A DNA stretch of 48,060 nt from contig LCKS01000009.1 in assembly GCA_001001555.1 (NCBI GenBank), forward strand, positions 1-48,060, written 5' to 3'. The notes beneath the pieces are model-generated. The model was not told where the DNA came from and did not search any database. It was given only the letters and a program-made list of their open reading frames with translations. The translations under genes were made by a program, and so were the position numbers. Source of the stretch: Candidatus Amesbacteria bacterium GW2011_GWC2_45_19. Its GTDB lineage: Bacteria; Patescibacteriota; Microgenomatia; CAZETR01; Amesbacteraceae. Positions within the stretch are counted from its first letter, which is position 1. Every line of letters starts with the position of its first letter. This document shows, one piece after another, positions 25,037-35,524 of this stretch.

Positions 25037-25816
25037 ATGGACCAACACCCAGTACCACAAAATATCTCTTCTTATGAATTCCACCTAGTGGGAGATATGA
25101 CTCTCAAGCAATTTTTTCAGCTGGCCGGCGGTGTGGCTGTCGCTGTTGTTGTCTATCGTCTTCCCCTGCCTTTTATTTTGAAATGGCCAATTATGGGCCT
25201 GGCGGCTTTAACCGGCGTCATGCTGGCCTTCGTTCCCGTCTCCGGCCGCCCCTTTTCCCAATGGATCATGGCTTTTATCAAAGCCATCTATTCCCCCACA
25301 GAATTTCATTGGTCTGAAACTTCCCAACCCCTGCCTACTATGAACCATAAACCAAGTAACCAAGTAACCAAAAAGTCTGTTCTCGACTTGATCGAATCCC
25401 AACTCATCGCCCGCTTCTCCCAAATATTTACCCACCCAAGTCTCGCCTTCTCTGCCATTCAACCAAACACTCAACGCTCAACGCGCAGCCCGCAACCCCT
25501 ATCCCCACTCCCTATCTCACTACCCACAACTCACAACTCTATGCCCCCTCCCGACCGCCCCAATCTTCTCACCGGCCTCGTTCTTGATCCCGCCGGATCA
25601 CGTTTAGAGGGAGTCATTTTAGAGTTATCCGACGCCACCGGCCTGCCCGTCCGGGCTTTGCGCACCAACAAACTCGGCCAATTCATGACCGCTACCCCCC
25701 TCTCTTCCGGAATTTATACTCTCTTTGCCGAAAAAGACGGTTTCGGTTTCCCCTCCGTCTCCATCCAAGTCGAAAACAAAATTATTTCTCCCATCGTCAT
25801 CACTGCTCATGCCTAG
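25037..25816 (+). CDS. PrgI family (VirB3-like) protein with C-terminal carboxypeptidase-regulatory-like domain
   Basis: Small secretion-system membrane component normally encoded just before VirB4, as here. 259 residues. The N-terminal PrgI part (about 1-95) has QNISSYEFHLVGDMTLKQFFQLAGG and two TM helices (25-43, 48-66). A linker (100-175) is largely translated 7- and 8-bp repeats. The C-terminal 80 residues (LTGLVLDPAGSRLEGVILEL, LRTNKLGQF, GIYTLFAEKDGF) form a carboxypeptidase-regulatory-like beta-sandwich. Its 3' end overlaps virB4 by 8 bp. The extra sandwich domain could contact the envelope or ATPase; inference. Confidence 0.85.
   Translation: MDQHPVPQNISSYEFHLVGDMTLKQFFQLAGGVAVAVVVYRLPLPFILKWPIMGLAALTGVMLAFVPVSGRPFSQWIMAFIKAIYSPTEFHWSETSQPLPTMNHKPSNQVTKKSVLDLIESQLIARFSQIFTHPSLAFSAIQPNTQRSTRSPQPLSPLPISLPTTHNSMPPPDRPNLLTGLVLDPAGSRLEGVILELSDATGLPVRALRTNKLGQFMTATPLSSGIYTLFAEKDGFGFPSVSIQVENKIISPIVITAHA
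25466..25498. repeat. Tandem 7-bp repeat array in PrgI linker
   Basis: Units of ctcaacg/ctcaacg/cgcagcc/cgcaacc. Translated NTQRSTRSPQP, nearly identical to the dnaA insert SPQRSTRNPQ although the genes are unrelated. Confidence 0.8.
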
Positions 25817-28193
25817 ACCCGTCCCCATCATCAAGGCTTCCACTCAAGACCACCTGGACATCGAAGATATCACAAACGACCTCGTTCTTCTCCAAGACGG
25901 TTCAGCCTGTTTAATCCTCGAGGTCTCCGCCCTCAATTTTGGCTTGTTATCAGAAAAAGAACAGGATGCTACCATTTACGCTTATGCCCAGCTTCTCAAT
26001 TCCCTCACTTTCTCCATTCAAATTGTTGTCTCCTCAAAACAAAAAGACATCTCCGATTACCTCGCGCTCCTGGACCTGCAATTGGGAAAGACCGCCAATT
26101 CCCTTCTCCATACCCAGCTCGCCAAATATCGTGATTTTATTAAAACCGTCGTCCGTCAAGGAAATGTTCTAGATAAGAAATTTTACGTGGCCATTCCCTT
26201 TTCCTCACTCGAACTCGGCATTTCCTCTAATTTCCAATCTCTAATTTCTATCCCCAAAAAGTCCAAGGAGTTGCCAAAGCCCGCTTCCGAAATTCTCGAA
26301 CGCGCCATTCTCATGTTGTCGCCCCGGCGCGACCATCTCGTTCGCCTGCTCACCCGTATTGGTCTGCGCGCCCGCCAGCTCACTTCTCCTGAACTCATCC
26401 AGTTTTTTTTCAATTCTTACCACCGCTCCCAGATCGAAACCAAAGTCACCGCTGCCTCCGCTATCGCCCCTCAATCAATTACGGTTGATTTCAACACTCT
26501 TAAAATCGACGATTGGTATTTCCGCTCCCTCTTTGTGGCGGGCTATCCCCGCTTCGTCACCGCCAATTGGCTGGCTCCCCTTATTAATTTCGACCATTCG
26601 TTAAATATCTCCATGTTCGTCTATCCTGTGGAAAGCAAGTCCACCCTGGACGACCTGCGCCGCAAAATTGCCGAAATGGAGGCCGAAATCTCCACCGATC
26701 TCCAGCGCGGCCGGGTAGTCGACCCCAGCACTCAAGCCAAACTGGAAGACGCCTTAACTCTCCAAGAACAATTAGTAAAGGGCGCCGAACGCTTCTTCCA
26801 ATTTGGCTTGTATGCCACCATCCCCGCCAAATCCGAAAGCGAGCTCAATCAGGTTACCAAGCAGGTTTCCAGCACCTTGGGTTCTCTGCTTATTACCACC
26901 GCCCCCGCCCTCCTCCAACAGGCCGACGGCTTCAAAACCACCCTGCCTACCTGTATCGACCACCTCATGGTCACCCGCAACATGGACACCACCTCCCTAG
27001 CCACCACCTTCCCTTTTACTTCCTCCGAGCTGACCAGTAACGAAGGCGTTCTCTATGGCTTGAACGAGCACAATGGAAGTTTAGTAATTTTTGACAGGTT
27101 CAGTTTAGAGAACGCCAACACCGTTTTGTTCGCAAAGGCTGGCGCCGGGAAGTCGTATTTAGTCAAACTGGAAATTCTCCGTTCCCTGATGTTTGGCACG
27201 GAAATACTTGTCATTGACCCGGAAAATGAATACAAGGCTCTTTGCGACGCCGTCGGCGGAGAGTACATTAATTTTGGCTTTAATTCTCCTGCCCGTCTCA
27301 ATCCCTTTGACCTCTCCGCCCTCACCCAATACTCCGACGAAAATGAATTGAACCTCAAAATCATGTCCCTGCACTCCCTTTTCAAAGTCATCATGGGCAC
27401 GCTCACCCCGACAGAAGAGGCAATTTTAGACCGGGCCCTGGTCGCTACCTATAAAATGAAGGGCATTACCCCCGACGCCGAAACTCAAAAAAAGACTCCT
27501 CCGTTAATGGAAGATCTTTACAAAGCCTTGATCGGCATGGAGGAGCCTCTTTCCCAAACTCTGGCCGACCGCATCGAAAAATTTGTCAAGGGCAGTTTCC
27601 GCGGCATTATCGACCAGCCCAGCAATGTCAACCTCAAAAATCCTTTCACTGTTTTTTCCGTCCGCGATCTGGAGGACTCTCTCAAGCCCATTGCCATTTT
27701 TATTATTCTCGATTACATTTGGACCAAAATGCGCCGGGAGCTTAAGAAAAGAATTTTAGTGGTTGATGAGGCTTGGTACCTGATGCGTTCCCCCGACTCC
27801 GCGGCTTTTTTATACGGCATTGCCAAACGGGCCCGCAAATATTTCCTAGGATTAACTACTATTACTCAAGACGTGGACGACTTTCTGACCACCGACTACG
27901 GCAAGGCCATTGTCACTAATTCCAGCATCCAAATTCTGATGAAGCAGTCCCCCGCCGCCATCGACAAAGTGGCCCAGGTCTTTTACTTATCCGAAGGAGA
28001 AAAACACTTATTGTTAAGCAGCGAAGTGGGCGAGGGCCTGTTCTTCGCCGGCAACAACCATGTGGCTATCCGGGTAGTGGCCTCTCCCGATGAACATAAA
28101 CTAGTCACCACCAAACCCTCGGAAATTTTGCGACAACAGGAGGAGCCAAAAGTCAGACTAGTTACTTCAACCGAAACCGGAGGTTCCACCTAA
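25809..28193 (+). CDS. virB4: VirB4-family secretion ATPase
   Basis: Energising ATPase of type IV secretion systems at the cytoplasmic face of the membrane, 794 residues from ATG 25809 (the open frame to 25725 is a shadow of prgI). The N-terminal part (1-200) has the TraC/VirB4 fold with DIEDITNDLVLLQDGSACLILEVSALNFGLLSEKEQ. The C-terminal motor has Walker A FAKAGAGKSYL near 441-451, VIDPENEYKALC, and Walker B RILVVDEAWYLM near 647-658. A Gln motif TTITQDVDDFL follows. All catalytic residues are present. Coupled to prgI and 1 bp from the next gene. A 7-bp repeat array (26225-26252) lies in the N-terminal part. Confidence 0.93.
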   Translation: MPRPVPIIKASTQDHLDIEDITNDLVLLQDGSACLILEVSALNFGLLSEKEQDATIYAYAQLLNSLTFSIQIVVSSKQKDISDYLALLDLQLGKTANSLLHTQLAKYRDFIKTVVRQGNVLDKKFYVAIPFSSLELGISSNFQSLISIPKKSKELPKPASEILERAILMLSPRRDHLVRLLTRIGLRARQLTSPELIQFFFNSYHRSQIETKVTAASAIAPQSITVDFNTLKIDDWYFRSLFVAGYPRFVTANWLAPLINFDHSLNISMFVYPVESKSTLDDLRRKIAEMEAEISTDLQRGRVVDPSTQAKLEDALTLQEQLVKGAERFFQFGLYATIPAKSESELNQVTKQVSSTLGSLLITTAPALLQQADGFKTTLPTCIDHLMVTRNMDTTSLATTFPFTSSELTSNEGVLYGLNEHNGSLVIFDRFSLENANTVLFAKAGAGKSYLVKLEILRSLMFGTEILVIDPENEYKALCDAVGGEYINFGFNSPARLNPFDLSALTQYSDENELNLKIMSLHSLFKVIMGTLTPTEEAILDRALVATYKMKGITPDAETQKKTPPLMEDLYKALIGMEEPLSQTLADRIEKFVKGSFRGIIDQPSNVNLKNPFTVFSVRDLEDSLKPIAIFIILDYIWTKMRRELKKRILVVDEAWYLMRSPDSAAFLYGIAKRARKYFLGLTTITQDVDDFLTTDYGKAIVTNSSIQILMKQSPAAIDKVAQVFYLSEGEKHLLLSSEVGEGLFFAGNNHVAIRVVASPDEHKLVTTKPSEILRQQEEPKVRLVTSTETGGST

Positions 28194-28194
28194 C

Positions 28195-29319
28195 ATGACC
28201 CAGACCGACCTGGCCGTCTATCGCTATGCTCTGCTGGCCCGTAATCTAATCTACAGGTGGGAGAGACATCAGGAAAATATCATTGACTCCCGATTTGATT
28301 GGAAGGCGGAAGATGAAGCGCTGCTGCAAACAACCTTCGAGTACTTTCAATCCAGCGTCGCTCCCAAACCGGATTTCGAATATCTGTCCGGGCAAATTAA
28401 GTTCTTCGAGCAATTCAAAGAGTATTTGCAGGAACAAATTATTGATCGGTACCAGGAAGTTCAGGCCAACTTGCCGCCTCCGGAGTTGGTCAAGTTGTAC
28501 GAGGAGCACCTCCAGCAAGAACGGCGGCTGCTAGAACAGCGGCAAAACCAACACCTCAAACTGGCTCCGGCCAGGATAAAGCTTATCCAAGATTTGGCCC
28601 GCCAATTTCCCCAGGTCGACCCCCAAACCATTCAGTTTATAGCCGACGAGGCCCTGACTATCTCCTACGAGATTTACCCCGAGTCGGCCCTCCCCCAAAT
28701 CGTTGCCGGCCTGCAACAACTGGCTCGGGTCACCCAGACTAAAGTTTCAGCTTCCCAACTGGCGGCCACTCTCTCCCAAGAAGATCTGGTGGCCGGTTTA
28801 GTCGAACAGCACCCCCGGTTCAAGGAAGCCTTGGAGTATGCTTCGCAAACTCTGCCCCGGATACTGGAAACGGCTGCTTCGGCAGAAACAAACCGCCTGT
28901 CTTCATATCTGGTTATTGCCAATGCCGCCGGACTGGCTCCCGCCATTCTGACCCCTTCCTCAGTTGAACTCCAGTCGGCTCTAGTCACCAGAACCGAGCC
29001 CTCATTAACGGCCCCGAAGATTTCCCAGGTGGGCGACCTGTGGGACAATTTATTGACTCACCACCAGCCCCAGGCAGAACAGCTGCTCACCCAACTCGAA
29101 CAGGTCCATCAACACCAACAACAAATTACCCAGGAGGTAGCTAAAAGGGTTGAGCTTTCGGGGCTCAATCCGGAAAGCCAGCAGATGGCTACCCAAATTA
29201 TCACCCAGTATATTCTCCCGCCCCTGCTTTACGCTTCCTCCTTCCCTCAAAACGCGGCGGAAAAAGAAGAAGTGCTGTCAACTGCCCAACGGGTGTTTGT
29301 GGATTTGGGAATTGGTTAA
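28195..29319 (+). pseudogene. Repeat-bearing secretion-locus protein, fragment 1 (N-terminal)
   Basis: N-terminal part (374 residues) of a long gene that now lies in three frames up to 32388. It is rich in Gln, Leu and Ala and largely helical (ELVKLYEEHLQQERRLLEQRQNQHLKL). Its last 60 residues are repeat module 1 (EVAKRVELSG...STAQRVFVDLGI), after which TAA ends the frame at 29317-29319. The next fragment continues at once in frame +1. It starts 1 bp after virB4, so it was built as part of the secretion operon. Confidence 0.6.
29134..29315 (+). repeat. Repeat module 1
   Basis: About 182 bp, nearly identical to module 2; both end in the shared sequence tttgtggatttgggaattgg. Encodes EVAKRVELSG-type helical unit. 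Confidence 0.85.
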
Positions 29320-29677
29320 GACTCAGCCCCTTTTCCTCACTGGCACTATGCCCCCCTTATTGGTTAAGGAATACTATAAAGCTGCCTACTCCCCCCCAGA
29401 CCCGGTCACCCAAGCTGCGATAGAAAAAATTGTGACTTCACCCGTTTCCCTTGAGCCAATCACCGCCGAAGTGGCTAAAAGGGTTGAGCTTTCGGGGCTG
29501 AGCCCGGAAAGCCAGCAGATGGCTACCCAAATTATCACCCAGTATATTGTCCCGCCCCTGCTTTACGCTTCCTCCTTCCCTCAAAACGCGGCGGAAAAAG
29601 AAGAAGTGCTGTCAACTGCCCAACGGGTGTTTGTGGATTTGGGAATTGGCCTACCAGGAGGCCGTGCAGTGGATTAA
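29316..29677 (+). pseudogene. Repeat-bearing protein, fragment 2
   Basis: Continuation in frame +1 of fragment 1: KTQPLFLTGTMPPLLVKEYY, then module 2, ending GGRAVD-stop. There is no promoter or RBS of its own. It makes sense only as an internal part of one long protein. About 20 residues expected from comparison with module 3 (the AEYQKGQ...AYQEAVQ linker) are missing at the junction. Confidence 0.55.
29468..29649 (+). repeat. Repeat module 2
   Basis: 182 bp, differing from module 1 at only a few positions. The downstream linker is shortened by 35 nt relative to module 3, which changes the frame. Confidence 0.85.
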
Positions 29678-30173
29678 GACTCAACCCTACTTCCTGGCCA
29701 ATATTAAAGTTCCCCCCGGTTCTATATCAACACCCCAAGTCCAGGAACTTTTTAACCAATTTTTCAGCTTAGCCGCTCAACCGGGACAGGACCAGGCAAT
29801 TCAGGCCGCTGTCCAGAAAGTTCTCGCTTCTTCACTCGGCCCGCCTCTCATCTCGGCGCTAGGCAGCAGAACGCCGGCGGCCATGGCAGCAGCTCTGCCG
29901 GAATCAATAACTCTTGGCATAGCCAAAAGAGTGGGGTCGTCGGGGCTGAGCCCGGAAAGCCAGCAGATGGCTACCCAAATTATCACCCAATATATTCTCC
30001 CTTCTATGGCTTATGCCGCTTCTTTTTCCCCAGATGAAATAACCGGAAAGGGAGCGCTGTCAACTGCCCAACGGGTGTTTGTGGATTTGGGAATTGCCGA
30101 GTATCAAAAAGGCCAACCAGCCCTCACCCCGGCCTACCAGGAGGCCGTGCAGTGCCTCGGAACGCATCCGTAA
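29650..30173 (+). pseudogene. Repeat-bearing protein, fragment 3
   Basis: Continuation in frame +1 of fragment 2: YQEAVQWIKTQPYFLANIK, a spacer, then module 3 with the complete linker AEYQKGQPALTPAYQEAVQ, ending CLGTHP-stop. The expected WIKTQP continuation is missing at the right junction. Confidence 0.55.
29919..30097 (+). repeat. Repeat module 3 (mosaic)
   Basis: Identical to modules 1-2 over blocks at both ends (aagccagcagatggctaccc and tttgtggatttgggaattg) but clearly different in the centre. This is the pattern left by gene conversion or by a chimeric assembly. Confidence 0.8.
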
Positions 30174-32388
30174 CGCTCTCCGCCAACACCAGATAAACCA
30201 GAAGGTACTCAAACTAATAGACCTGTCCGGACTCAGTCCGGAAGAAAGACGAATAGCCACCCAAATTATTACCCAACAACTACTGCCGTCTCTGCAATAC
30301 GCCGCCTCTTTCGCCAAAGACGAGTCTGAAAAACGGGGGCTTCTGCCACAAATCCAGCAAGTTTTTGTCCACCTGGGCCTGGCCGCCCACCAAAAAGACT
30401 CCACCCTGACCTATCGCACGGCCTACTTGTGGATTGCAGCTCAATCTTTCTATCAATTCACCTCCGCCGGTCAACCGCAGTACGGGCCACCCCCTCAAGT
30501 TGCGGGTTTCTACCGCCAGCTGTTTAGTTTTGCTTCCGGGAAGATTCAAGACAGAGTTACCCGGGTCGCCATGCAAAAATTCCTGTCTTCATCTATGGGA
30601 AAGGGAATCACATCCGCTCTTGGGCTTGGAACCAAAGCCGCCGCAACCGCCGCCGCTAAGGCGGGCTTGACAAAGGCCATCTCCTCAATCGCCATAAAAA
30701 CACTGGCTGCAATTGGAATTGCCGACCCCGAACCTATAACTAAAGCCATCATTTTTGTGGCGACGCTGCTGTTGGACAAACTGCGCGACTTGGCCTCTTG
30801 GCTGAAACGCCAAGTTAAAGAGTATATCCTGCCTTTGTTGGCAGGTCTGCTGACGATTGGACTGGCGGCCTTGGGTGGAATTACCTCGCTCTTCGGACTG
30901 GCGGCAGCGGGGATAGTGGGTGGAATTGCCGGAAGTGCTCTATCCGTAGGAGGATTAAGCCGGCTGGGGGCCGGGGCCAGCCGTTTCTTCAACAGCTTCG
31001 CCGGTCTGGCTGTCACTCAAATTGCCACTCCCGTCATCGTCATTAGCCTGTCTATCCCCGTCGCCGTCGCCTTCATCCTCTTCATCATCAACACCTCCGC
31101 CCTGGTCGTCCCCCCCGGCGGCCCTACTTCCGGAATCTCCCCGGGCCCGGTCGCTTCCGGATCTTGCCCTCTGGCGGGAACTGTCCAAATTTACCAGTCT
31201 TCGTATAATGAAAGCTCACAAGCCGGTCACGGCAGTAACGCCTACTGGGGAACAACGCCCCCTGTTTGTACCTATCCTATCCCAATTGACGCAATGGTTT
31301 CCGGTTGTTGGGGGCCAGTTAATTCAACTACCAACGTCTGCAGAAACGCCTCGTCCCTCTGTCCTTACTACGGCTTCGCCGCAGATCTTAAACCACCGGA
31401 CACCTCTCTCCCTAACGTCGTTCTTCCTACTCTTTGTGGCCCGGGAATAAACAGTTGCCCTCCTCTTACCTGGACCGTTGAACAAGGGTGGTTTAATTGT
31501 GGCGGCGGAGCTGTCCCAAATCCCCAAAGCTGTAGTGGCAGCAAATGGGGCTATGGGGTTGTCTTTAATTCAAGTGGAAACGGAGCAAATTGGAAAATTT
31601 ATCTGAATCATTTCCAACCTGTTGGACCCCTCCTTGATCAATCCGGAGTAATTAAGACCGGGGGAAGTTTTTCTTCAGGTGACGTTATGGGGACAATCTC
31701 CTCGACTCTGGCTCCTCCCCACCTCCACGTTGAGCTTGACATCAACGGTGTCCCTGTAAGGCCCGACTTTCTCTGTCAAGCCGGCGCGGGGGGGCCAGTC
31801 AATGGATGGCTCGTTACTGCCCCTCTTTCTGATGCCTCAACCTTCATTGCCTCAACACCTTTGGAATACAAAAATAAAACTTGCGATTGGTCAGGCGCAA
31901 AAAGCGGGGTAACTTATGCCATCAACGCAAATTACTTTAACACCAATACCGATCCCGAAGGTCCTGCGGGACACGGGGGAAGCTTTACGAACTATCCCCC
32001 AACTAGAAATGTGGAACCATATTCTCTTATCGTTGATTCAAGCAATAACGCCAGCATTGTTGCCTCTTCGTCTTTGCCCAGCAATTTGAGCGGCTATAAA
32101 CTCGCCATCTCCGGGATTCCTTTCTATCCATCAATTAATACTCGGGCTCCACGCGCGGCAGTCGGAATAGGCGGAGGAAATCTATATATGCTTATTCTCC
32201 AGGCCGCTACGGGGCCAGAAACCGAAATTGCAATAAGAGCGGCAGGAGCGACCGAGGCAATTTTGCTCGACGGCGGCCAATCCGCTACTCTGTGCCAAGG
32301 CGGTAACATAATATTTGGAAATACAAGAGTGGTTGCTAACAGTTTCGCCGTAAAATCTGGTACTATGAGTGTGTTTTCTTACCCTTAA
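30154..32388 (+). pseudogene. Repeat-bearing protein, fragment 4: membrane segments, M23-like and phosphodiester-glycosidase domains
   Basis: C-terminal part of the broken gene, in frame +1 relative to fragment 3. After module 4 come Ala/Gly-rich hydrophobic segments (30820-30950 and 31020-31110) that would anchor it. An M23-peptidase-like region follows (31190-31790) with HLHVEL near 31719 and YLNHFQPVGPLL, but the first metal-binding motif reads YGFAAD without its His, so it may be inactive. The last 170 residues are a NAGPA/phosphodiester-glycosidase domain (INANYFN, RAAVGIGGGNLYMLIL, ILLDGGQSAT), a family acting on GlcNAc-1-P diesters. Prodigal-type callers may start it at ATG 30571. Probably an envelope-remodelling part of the secretion system. 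Confidence 0.65.
30201..30387 (+). repeat. Repeat module 4 (diverged)
   Basis: Same helical unit (LIDLSGLSPEERRIATQIITQQLL...FVHLGLAA) but strongly diverged in DNA from modules 1-3. Confidence 0.75.
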
Positions 32389-32391
32389 AAA

Positions 32392-32892
32392 ATGAAAAGT
32401 CTATTAGAAAAACTTAGATCTAGAAAAATTTTGTTAGTAATTATTATAATAATCCTTTTCTTTCTAGGAATTGCTGTTTTAATTTTCTCGAGCAAAAAAC
32501 CAAAACAAATTGGACTCCCCGGACCGCTTCCAACTTCTACGCTCGAACAGGCTGGTGCTCTTGCGGTAGACGGGATTTATCCAAGCTCGGGGAGCGTGGA
32601 ACTGGCCCAAACAAGAAATTCAATCTCTGTCTTTTTTGAAACTGAAGTTGATCCCAAGTCGATTACGGTAAAATCCGAGCCTTCTTTGGAATTCGAGATA
32701 AAAACCCTAAAAGACTTTCCCGAAAGAATAATCCTTGAGCCCCGATCTCCTTGGGTTGACAAAACGGTTTATAAGATTAAAATCTTGAAAGGGGTTAGGA
32801 GCAAAGACAACAGTAAAGAACTCAAAAATGATATCGAGATAGAATATAAAATTCTTCCTGTAAAACCTCCAAAATATGACAGGCCCGTTTAA
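32392..32892 (+). CDS. Anchored protein with Ig-like (Big_5-type) domain
   Basis: 166 residues. An N-terminal basic segment and one TM helix (about 13-33, LLVIIIIILFFLGIAVLIF) anchor it outward. A Pro-rich linker leads to a beta-sandwich (IYPSSGSVELAQTRNSISVFFETEVDP, ITVKSEPSLEFEIKTL, IILEPRSPWVDKTVYKIKIL) resembling SbsA/Big_5 Ig-like domains. It starts 3 bp after the glycosidase stop, so it closes the secretion operon. Likely a structural or adhesive envelope accessory; exact role unknown. Codon use is more AT-rich than upstream. Confidence 0.7.
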   Translation: MKSLLEKLRSRKILLVIIIIILFFLGIAVLIFSSKKPKQIGLPGPLPTSTLEQAGALAVDGIYPSSGSVELAQTRNSISVFFETEVDPKSITVKSEPSLEFEIKTLKDFPERIILEPRSPWVDKTVYKIKILKGVRSKDNSKELKNDIEIEYKILPVKPPKYDRPV

Positions 32893-32900
32893 GATCGGCC

Positions 32901-33995
32901 CTAAACTCTCACCGGCATTATCAGATGAATCAGGCTCTTGTCTTTTTCCCCCATCCACACTCCGGGAGACAAATTATCGTTTATTTTTAATCTTATTCTT
33001 TCTTCTCTCACGCTTCCCAGGAAGTCTTGCACGAATTTATAGTTAAAGGCAATCTCTCCGTCTTCCCCCTCTTTCTCTATCTCTATTTCACTCTCGTTCT
33101 CCCCCGTCTGCGCCGCCTGGGCCTTTACTATGAACTGTGAACCATGAACCATAAACTTAACAATATTGCTGTTTTCCCTGGCAAAAATCCCCGCCACCCG
33201 CAGGGCCGCCGCTAATTTCTCTCTATCTATTATCGCTTCCGTTTTAAAGCTTTGGGGAATTATTTTGTCTACGTCCGGAAAGTTTCCTTCCAGCACCCGC
33301 GACACCAGTTGTACGTCCCCGCAACTAAATATCACCTGATTGTTTTCTTTTACCGTCTCCATTATTATCTCTTCCTCTTCTGCTACTCTGGCCAATTCCA
33401 GTATCGTCCTCGCCGGCAATATTACATTTGGGATTTGGGATTTGAGATTTGGAATTTGTTTCCGGCTAAGCCGGAAACCGTCTGTCGCCACCACCATTAA
33501 CTCACTACCCACTACCCAAAACTTAACCCCAGTCAGCACCGGCCTACTCTCATCCGCCGCCGCCGCATACGCCACCTGACTTGCTATCTCCAGCAATAAT
33601 TCCTTTTTAATTTTAATGGGGGCCTGCCCCGCCGTAGCTTTAGCGAAGGCGGGGAACTCGCTGGCGGCAATCCCTGTCAACATTCCCGCCGATTTCCCGG
33701 TTTTAATTTTTAATTTCTCCCCTTCCGTTTGTAAATCCAAACTCTCTCCAGGCAGTGACCCTACCAATTCACCCAAGTTTTTTCCAGGAATTGTAACCGC
33801 CCCCGGCTCTGTTACTTTTCCCCCCACCCTCACCCGCAATCCGATTTCCAGGTTCGTCGCTGCCAACGTCAATCCTTCTTTACTGGCCTCAATTAATACA
33901 TTTGCCAATACCGGTAATTGCCCACGGGTAGCCACCACCCGGCTGACTATCCCCAACCCTTTATTCAGATCCGGCTGTAAAACTGTGGCGTGCAT
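32901..33995 (-). CDS. dnaN: DNA polymerase III beta subunit (sliding clamp)
   Basis: Ring-shaped processivity clamp, 364 residues, near family length. The three-fold domain pattern is clear: RGQLPVLANVLIEA (24-38), LTLAATNLEIGL, DESRPVLTGVKF, VATDGFRLSRK and the C-terminal HLIMPVRV, which ends like family MPMR/L. Three extras look inserted: PAFAKATAGQ (115-124) from a palindromic element, and two segments from 7-bp repeats (IPNLKSQIPN and VHGSQFIVKA). It lies downstream of dnaA on the same strand, 155 bp apart; no clear -10 at the start. Confidence 0.95.
   Translation of the reverse strand: MHATVLQPDLNKGLGIVSRVVATRGQLPVLANVLIEASKEGLTLAATNLEIGLRVRVGGKVTEPGAVTIPGKNLGELVGSLPGESLDLQTEGEKLKIKTGKSAGMLTGIAASEFPAFAKATAGQAPIKIKKELLLEIASQVAYAAAADESRPVLTGVKFWVVGSELMVVATDGFRLSRKQIPNLKSQIPNVILPARTILELARVAEEEEIIMETVKENNQVIFSCGDVQLVSRVLEGNFPDVDKIIPQSFKTEAIIDREKLAAALRVAGIFARENSNIVKFMVHGSQFIVKAQAAQTGENESEIEIEKEGEDGEIAFNYKFVQDFLGSVREERIRLKINDNLSPGVWMGEKDKSLIHLIMPVRV
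33128..33157. repeat. Tandem 7-bp repeat array in dnaN
   Basis: ctatgaa, ctgtgaa, ccatgaa, ccataaa. Same word family as 7927-7957 and 38398-38430. Confidence 0.75.
33427..33458. repeat. Tandem 7-bp repeat array in dnaN
   Basis: gggattt, gggattt, gagattt, ggaattt. Encodes the insert IPNLKSQIPN next to the conserved FRLSRK. Confidence 0.8.
33625..33656. repeat. Palindromic insertion in dnaN (PAFAKATAG type)
   Basis: Inverted repeat CCCCGCC (33627-33633) / GGCGGGG (33648-33654). On the coding strand it is translated FPAFAKATAGQ. This peptide recurs in unrelated bacterial proteins as the read-out of a dispersed palindrome (recalled knowledge). It lies in a domain I loop after ASEF. Confidence 0.7.
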
Positions 33996-34150: not shown

Positions 34151-35515
34151 TCATCTGCTTGTCAACAATTTTTTCTTGATATCCCCAATTTGGTTGTGGA
34201 CAGCTTGGTCTGTCTGCATAGCCAGAACCACTTTTTTGTCGGCGTGCATCACGGTTGTGTGGTCCCTCCCTCCTATTAACCTCCCCACTTCCTCCAATGG
34301 TAATTTTAGATCCGTCCGCAGCAGATGCATCAAAATTTGCCTCGGCCAAACCACGGCTTTGGTTCTCCGTTCTCCCTTAAGCTGTTGCACCCCCAGTCCG
34401 TAGTAATTCGCTATCAGATTAATAACTTCGTTCGGGGTCACAATCCTGGCCTGCCCGTCGGCCGGCTGGCTAATTTTTAACAGCCTCTCCACCATTTCCA
34501 CCGTCACCGGCTCCTTCTTGACCTCCGCCTCGGAGGTGATCCTCATCAAAAACCCTTCCAGTTCCCGTACCCCCTCAATATATGAAGCAATAGCCTGGGC
34601 TACATCCATGGCCAGTTCCTGGCCCCGCTGTTTGGCTTTAATTAAGAGAATGGCCGTCCGTAGTTCAAAATCCGCTGGTCCCACGTCCACAATCATCCCC
34701 GCCCCAAACCGGCTGCGTAGTCTTTCCTCCAGTTTAGATATTTCCCCCGGCGGTTTGTCCGAAGTCATGATAATCTGTCCCCCCTCCCGGCCAATAGAGT
34801 TAAAAGTGTGGAAAAATTCCTCCTGCACCGATGCCTTTCCGGCAATAAATTGCACGTCGTCGATAAGCAGAGCTTTTACTTTCCGGTATTTGCCCCGCAC
34901 CCGGTCGGTATCTTTGTTGCGGATACCCATCACCAGGTCGTTAGTAAATTCCTCTCCGGTACAAAATAGCACCGGCCCTTCTCCCCTTTCGATGACTGCG
35001 TGCCCGACCGCCTGCATTAAATGGGTTTTTCCCACCCCCACCCCGCCGTAAATAAACAGCGGATTGTAAGCCGTTCCCGGTTTACGGGCCACCGCCATGG
35101 CCGCCGCGTGCGCCATTTGGTTTGATCCCGAAACGGCGTAATTATCAAAAGTAAACTCGGATCTTAATCTGGCTCTCTTCACCTCATCACTATCATCTCT
35201 TTCCGTAAACAGCGGCAAGTCTTTCTCTTCTTGAGGGTTGCGCGTTGAGCGTTGAGGGCTGATTATAAATCTTATTTCGCAATCTTTTTCTGTCACCCTT
35301 TTCAACTCCTCCGCCAATTGTCCATAGAAACGTTGCTCCAACAAAGTCTTAGTCATTCCTGACGAGCAGCCTACTTCACATATCCATCTGTCGCCGCTGT
35401 CTGCTATGGCTACTAATTTCGTTTGCCGGATGAGAGTATTGAAGGTTCCCGCAGACACTGCTACCTTCATCCCTTCTAAAACAGTCTTCCAAATTCTGGT
35501 TACGTCTCTGTCCAT
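34151..35515 (-). CDS. dnaA: Chromosomal replication initiator DnaA
   Basis: AAA+ initiator that binds DnaA boxes and opens the origin. 454 residues from ATG 35515; TTG 35521 is an alternative start. Domain I (1-80) carries IWKTVLEGMKVAVSAGTFNTLI. The domain II linker (81-115) contains SPQRSTRNPQ, a translated 7-bp repeat array. Domain III has Walker A GGVGVGKTH (157-165) and Walker B ALLIDDVQF (215-223). The domain IV signature GRDHTTVMHA is present near 425. TATAAC (35525-35530) lies just upstream, with a perfect DnaA box between -10 and -35, suggesting autoregulation. Confidence 0.97.
   Translation of the reverse strand: MDRDVTRIWKTVLEGMKVAVSAGTFNTLIRQTKLVAIADSGDRWICEVGCSSGMTKTLLEQRFYGQLAEELKRVTEKDCEIRFIISPQRSTRNPQEEKDLPLFTERDDSDEVKRARLRSEFTFDNYAVSGSNQMAHAAAMAVARKPGTAYNPLFIYGGVGVGKTHLMQAVGHAVIERGEGPVLFCTGEEFTNDLVMGIRNKDTDRVRGKYRKVKALLIDDVQFIAGKASVQEEFFHTFNSIGREGGQIIMTSDKPPGEISKLEERLRSRFGAGMIVDVGPADFELRTAILLIKAKQRGQELAMDVAQAIASYIEGVRELEGFLMRITSEAEVKKEPVTVEMVERLLKISQPADGQARIVTPNEVINLIANYYGLGVQQLKGERRTKAVVWPRQILMHLLRTDLKLPLEEVGRLIGGRDHTTVMHADKKVVLAMQTDQAVHNQIGDIKKKLLTSR
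35231..35262. repeat. Tandem 7-bp repeat array in dnaA linker
   Basis: ttgaggg, ttgcgcg, ttgagcg, ttgaggg. On the coding strand CTCAACG-type words give SPQRSTRNPQ. Confidence 0.8.
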
Positions 35516-35524
35516 TGCCAATTT

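Follow-up and report, generated by a model that had tools for sequence, protein, structure and literature searches.

The locus

The window that we analysed, a stretch of 48,060 nt, is one contig (C9) of a MAG (G000) with 21 contigs and 813,806 nt in total. On its plus strand it carries a gene for a PrgI-type (VirB3-like) protein (25037–25816; Pfam PrgI, 2.2e-9), a gene for a VirB4/TraC-type ATPase (25725–28193; TraG P-loop, 1.5e-31; AAA_10, 8.7e-13) and, directly downstream of these two, a repeat-bearing gene (28195–32388) whose reading frame is broken. A gene for a small Big_5-like protein follows, and then dnaN (32901–33995) and dnaA (34151–35521) on the opposite strand. T4SS genes of Patescibacteria often lie near dnaA/dnaN (PMC12102498), and with a VirB4 ATPase, a PrgI-type protein and a placement near dnaA and dnaN, the broken gene is part of a T4SS-like locus of Patescibacterial type. 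At least 539 relatives of the VirB4 protein were found, the best 80 of which were used for comparison; the closest among the matches listed come from Candidatus Amesbacteria and other Microgenomates of the phylum Patescibacteria.

The C-terminal end of the PrgI-type protein has a weak carboxypeptidase-regulatory-like match (22.7 bits, cut-off 32.3), and by eye a similar sequence occurs in a genome of the same genus (L058). The VirB4 gene of that genome (L058:7227–11993) contains an intein at the ATP-binding motif (LAGLIDADG_3, E 1e-17; Intein_splicing, 2.6e-8, slightly below its cut-off), unlike the VirB4 gene of the window.

Four repeat modules and three frame breaks

The repeat-bearing gene is read as four overlapping ORFs on the plus strand: 28195–29319 in frame 1, 29150–29677 in frame 2, 29547–30173 in frame 3 and 30079–32388 in frame 1 again. 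Alignment of the repeat copies refines the junctions to 29314|29315, 29648|29649 and 30154|30155, where both the stop codons and the codon bias switch frame. The training set of the codon-bias model consisted of stretches without stops, 350 codons or longer, from the MAG's other contigs. The model scores the first four segments at +0.144, +0.145, +0.124 and +0.120 in the frames given above and negatively in the other frames, so that only the frame given is both positive and stop-free. Up to 30700 the coding bias is kept and the segments contain no internal stop. ORFs and codon bias thus agree on the frame path 1 to 2 to 3 to 1 of the original prediction.

The junctions are associated with four related modules of 192 nt, one more than had been predicted. 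Module 1 (29124–29315, frame 1), taken as the reference, ends the N-terminal part of the gene (28195–29314). Module 2 (29458–29649, frame 2) is 95% identical to it and module 3 (29906–30097, frame 3) 74%; module 4 (30192–30383, frame 1), which had been overlooked, is more diverged (62%). Over their best-matching stretches, modules 1 and 2 are 97% identical across 182 nt, in keeping with the near identity noted before; module 3 had been thought to share only its ends with these two, but matches both at 82–83% over 163 nt. The linker had been taken to be complete after module 3. It is broken there at 30154, and it is therefore whole only after module 4, within the C-terminal part of the gene (30155–32388). 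Compared with module 3, modules 1 and 2 are followed by a linker that lacks its beginning, and linker residues seen in other copies are absent at the junctions. At junction 1, linkers 1 and 2 first differ at a G that is also the first base to the right of the break.

Judged from these alignments, the module repeats are beyond chance, and the tandem modules are probably real, though their number cannot be trusted. A module profile gave no significant match in the loci of the 80 relatives; the top hit, to the same-locus gene of L021, had E 0.24. The missing copy of the linker was not found elsewhere in the MAG, and the exact repeat sequence was not found in viral contigs. In the one other same-genus genome compared for shared DNA, the gene at the same place matches over 59 nt only.

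The breaks lie at the overlap limit of the assembly

Modules 1 and 2 can last be told apart at 29215, which corresponds to 29549 in module 2, and module 3 can last be told apart from both at 30055. From the last copy-specific base to the break the distance is exactly 99 nt at all three junctions (29215 to 29314, 29549 to 29648 and 30055 to 30154). In the comparison of modules 1 and 2, a single position out of 191 has this distance, and it is the junction itself. Were breaks placed at random over about 200 positions, each independent break would match with a chance of about 1 in 200, an estimate and not a formal test. Junctions 1 and 2 are homologous sites, so the three 99-nt distances amount to two or three independent coincidences: by the same kind of estimate, counting junctions 1 and 2 together gives about 1 in 40,000, and counting them separately a far smaller chance.

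The same length recurs at the contig ends of the MAG. No exact repeat that involves a contig end is longer than 99 nt; 12 such repeats have exactly this length, and the contig pairs with such an overlap include C1/C2, C9/C11, C4/C11, C10/C12 and C14/C16. A de Bruijn assembly run at k = 100, or at k = 99 in other assemblers, is expected to give such overlaps, and it is their length that points to the assembler; k = 100 is the default of IDBA-UD. We simulated this situation with random DNA and k = 100, and 600 of 600 unitigs entering a repeat ended exactly k-1 past the last copy-specific base. Modules 1 and 2 have an exact 100-mer in common on the plus strand (29216–29315 and 29550–29649). Across the 814 kb of the MAG, no other 100-mer is duplicated on the same strand, and duplicated 101-mers do not occur. 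The use of this 100-mer twice under a 99-nt limit would point to a joining step and not to a simple walk through the graph. Runs of N, 70 nt in C1 and 33 nt in C11, suggest that the assembly was scaffolded. In the interior of another contig (C3:36403–38941), two exact inverted repeats, 98 and 90 nt long, fall slightly short of the overlap limit; they are possibly a further misassembly or a mobile element.

Other repeats and relatives' genes served as controls. Other in-gene repeats of the MAG, with exact runs shorter than 99 nt or less identical, leave their frames open: unbroken repeat-bearing ORFs are present in C15 (531 and 434 aa) and C6 (752 and 773 aa), and tandem repeats lie within a 733-aa ORF of C14 and a 719-aa ORF of C15. 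In the relatives, where a comparison of orthologues had been proposed as a check, the gene at the same locus is mostly one long open frame (789 aa in the same-genus L058; 788, 927, 911 and 1129 aa in others). The same-locus gene of L024 (VMGA01000048.1; L024:3997–5908) is split by one apparent frame shift into two overlapping ORFs.

Origin of the frame breaks

Contigs of a de Bruijn assembly whose overlaps are 99 nt long must end at these very points, and we therefore read the breaks as false joins. With high confidence, the organism has the gene as a single ORF that contains four or more related modules, and the three breaks in its frame are errors made locally in the assembly. The assembler would have built a de Bruijn graph with 99-nt overlaps between neighbouring contigs. 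Each module end and the linker sequence after it would be repeated over more than 99 nt, so that contigs would have ended exactly 99 nt past the last copy-specific base. These ends would then have been linked to the next unique sequence in a later joining step that omitted the rest of the repeat and dropped linker sequence at each join; the lost lengths, not being multiples of three, would have shifted the frame. We infer both the joining step and the unbroken state of the real gene. When both edges of the three junctions were compared with this graph model, the left edges fitted exactly. On the right, junction 1 is as trimming by the whole overlap would leave it, junction 3 can be reconciled with the model, its lost length not being fixed, and junction 2 misfits the simplest model, as about 25 nt more are kept than a simple k-1 join predicts. 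The chimeric assembly put forward as one possibility in the original prediction thus holds as far as assembly error is concerned, which is strongly supported; a chimera of two organisms is unneeded, since false joins within one genome suffice.

Errors of this kind have been described. Chen et al. (2020) reported local assembly errors and suspected them to be prominent in IDBA-UD assemblies (PMC7111523). Their cases likewise involve local repeats, with sequence lacking read support or with wrong repeat content, and one that they corrected is a repeat-bearing protein gene in a CPR genome. In difference to that study, the error described here is deduced from the 99-nt geometry alone, without reads.

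That the breaks are instead real deletions in the sampled population, marking a recent pseudogene or a strain variant, is improbable. They are present in the contig, tandem repeats are prone to deletion, and codon bias would outlast a recent inactivation for a while. Against this, the end of each of three non-homologous deletions would have to fall precisely 99 nt from the last copy-specific base, a distance equal to the overlap limit, and no stop codons have accumulated inside the segments; homologous recombination between in-frame modules, for its part, would preserve the frame. It is still less probable that the breaks are real in some cells, in which inter-module deletions would inactivate a T4SS-associated wall hydrolase.

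The original prediction had also proposed that recombination generates the deletions and could turn the M23/NAGPA protein on and off. Near-identical direct repeats in a gene of a surface-directed system are what such a reversible, phase-variable switch might use, but we consider it very improbable. Three separate breaks would need to be restored jointly. Exchange between in-frame modules would give in-frame products; the junctions are not products of homologous exchange, and they coincide with the k-1 limit. A search of 28000–32500 for simple tandem repeats found none, and the junctions hold nothing slippage-prone. The only inverted pair in the region (75% match, 31370/31487) is away from the junctions, so that no simple repeat, invertible segment or site-specific recombination site of the sort that marks a phase-variable gene was found at a break. 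The lack of a significant match to the module profile in the relatives' loci also speaks against a switch.

Programmed +1 ribosomal frameshifting, by which the three segments would be read as one protein, is equally remote: the three shifts share a direction and sum to a return to frame 1, but the linker residues of other copies that are lost at the junctions mark deletions and not shift sites, and a shift site would have no reason to lie 99 nt from the last difference between copies.

False joins at the repeats are by a wide measure the best explanation: the gene is interesting in other respects, but its breaks are an ordinary artefact of assembly, and the claim of phase variation is removed as false. 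The comparison that leads to this reading, of the distance between the last copy-specific base and the break with the length over which contig ends overlap, is a test that needs no reads, and apparently broken repeat-bearing genes in MAGs can be screened by it.

The encoded protein

The protein is composed of helical repeat modules, membrane segments, an M23-like region and a NAGPA domain; module 4, its linker and all the features after it are encoded by the C-terminal part of the gene. Of the two domains originally named, the NAGPA phosphodiester glycosidase domain is solid (39.4 bits, Pfam gathering score 25), whereas Peptidase M23 is weak and falls below its cut-off (14.7 bits, gathering score 28.7), although an HxH motif is present. 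Compared with solved M23 peptidases, the M23-like region again gives a weak match (E 0.02). Same-locus genes in relatives have M23 or CHAP domains; of eight scanned with Pfam, five have M23 above the cut-off.

The arrangement resembles the Patescibacterial T4SS, which is MPF-FATA-like (PMC12102498), in that the PrgI and VirB4 genes adjoin dnaN/dnaA and a cell-wall peptidase-type gene lies near virB4. In the epibiont strain ML1, peptidase and lysozyme homologues immediately downstream of virB4 are essential (PMC12102498). The window's copy differs in that its membrane part is preceded by four or more tandem modules and a NAGPA domain stands at the end, whereas the scanned relatives mostly have M23 alone. 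From its position and domains, the protein probably acts together with the T4SS-like machine as a partner that is anchored in the membrane and directed at the cell wall. By eye, the M23-like region (31150–31830) keeps HLH and seemingly lacks the usual first histidine, and a YYG[FY]AxD stretch similar to part of this region occurs in L024 and L025.
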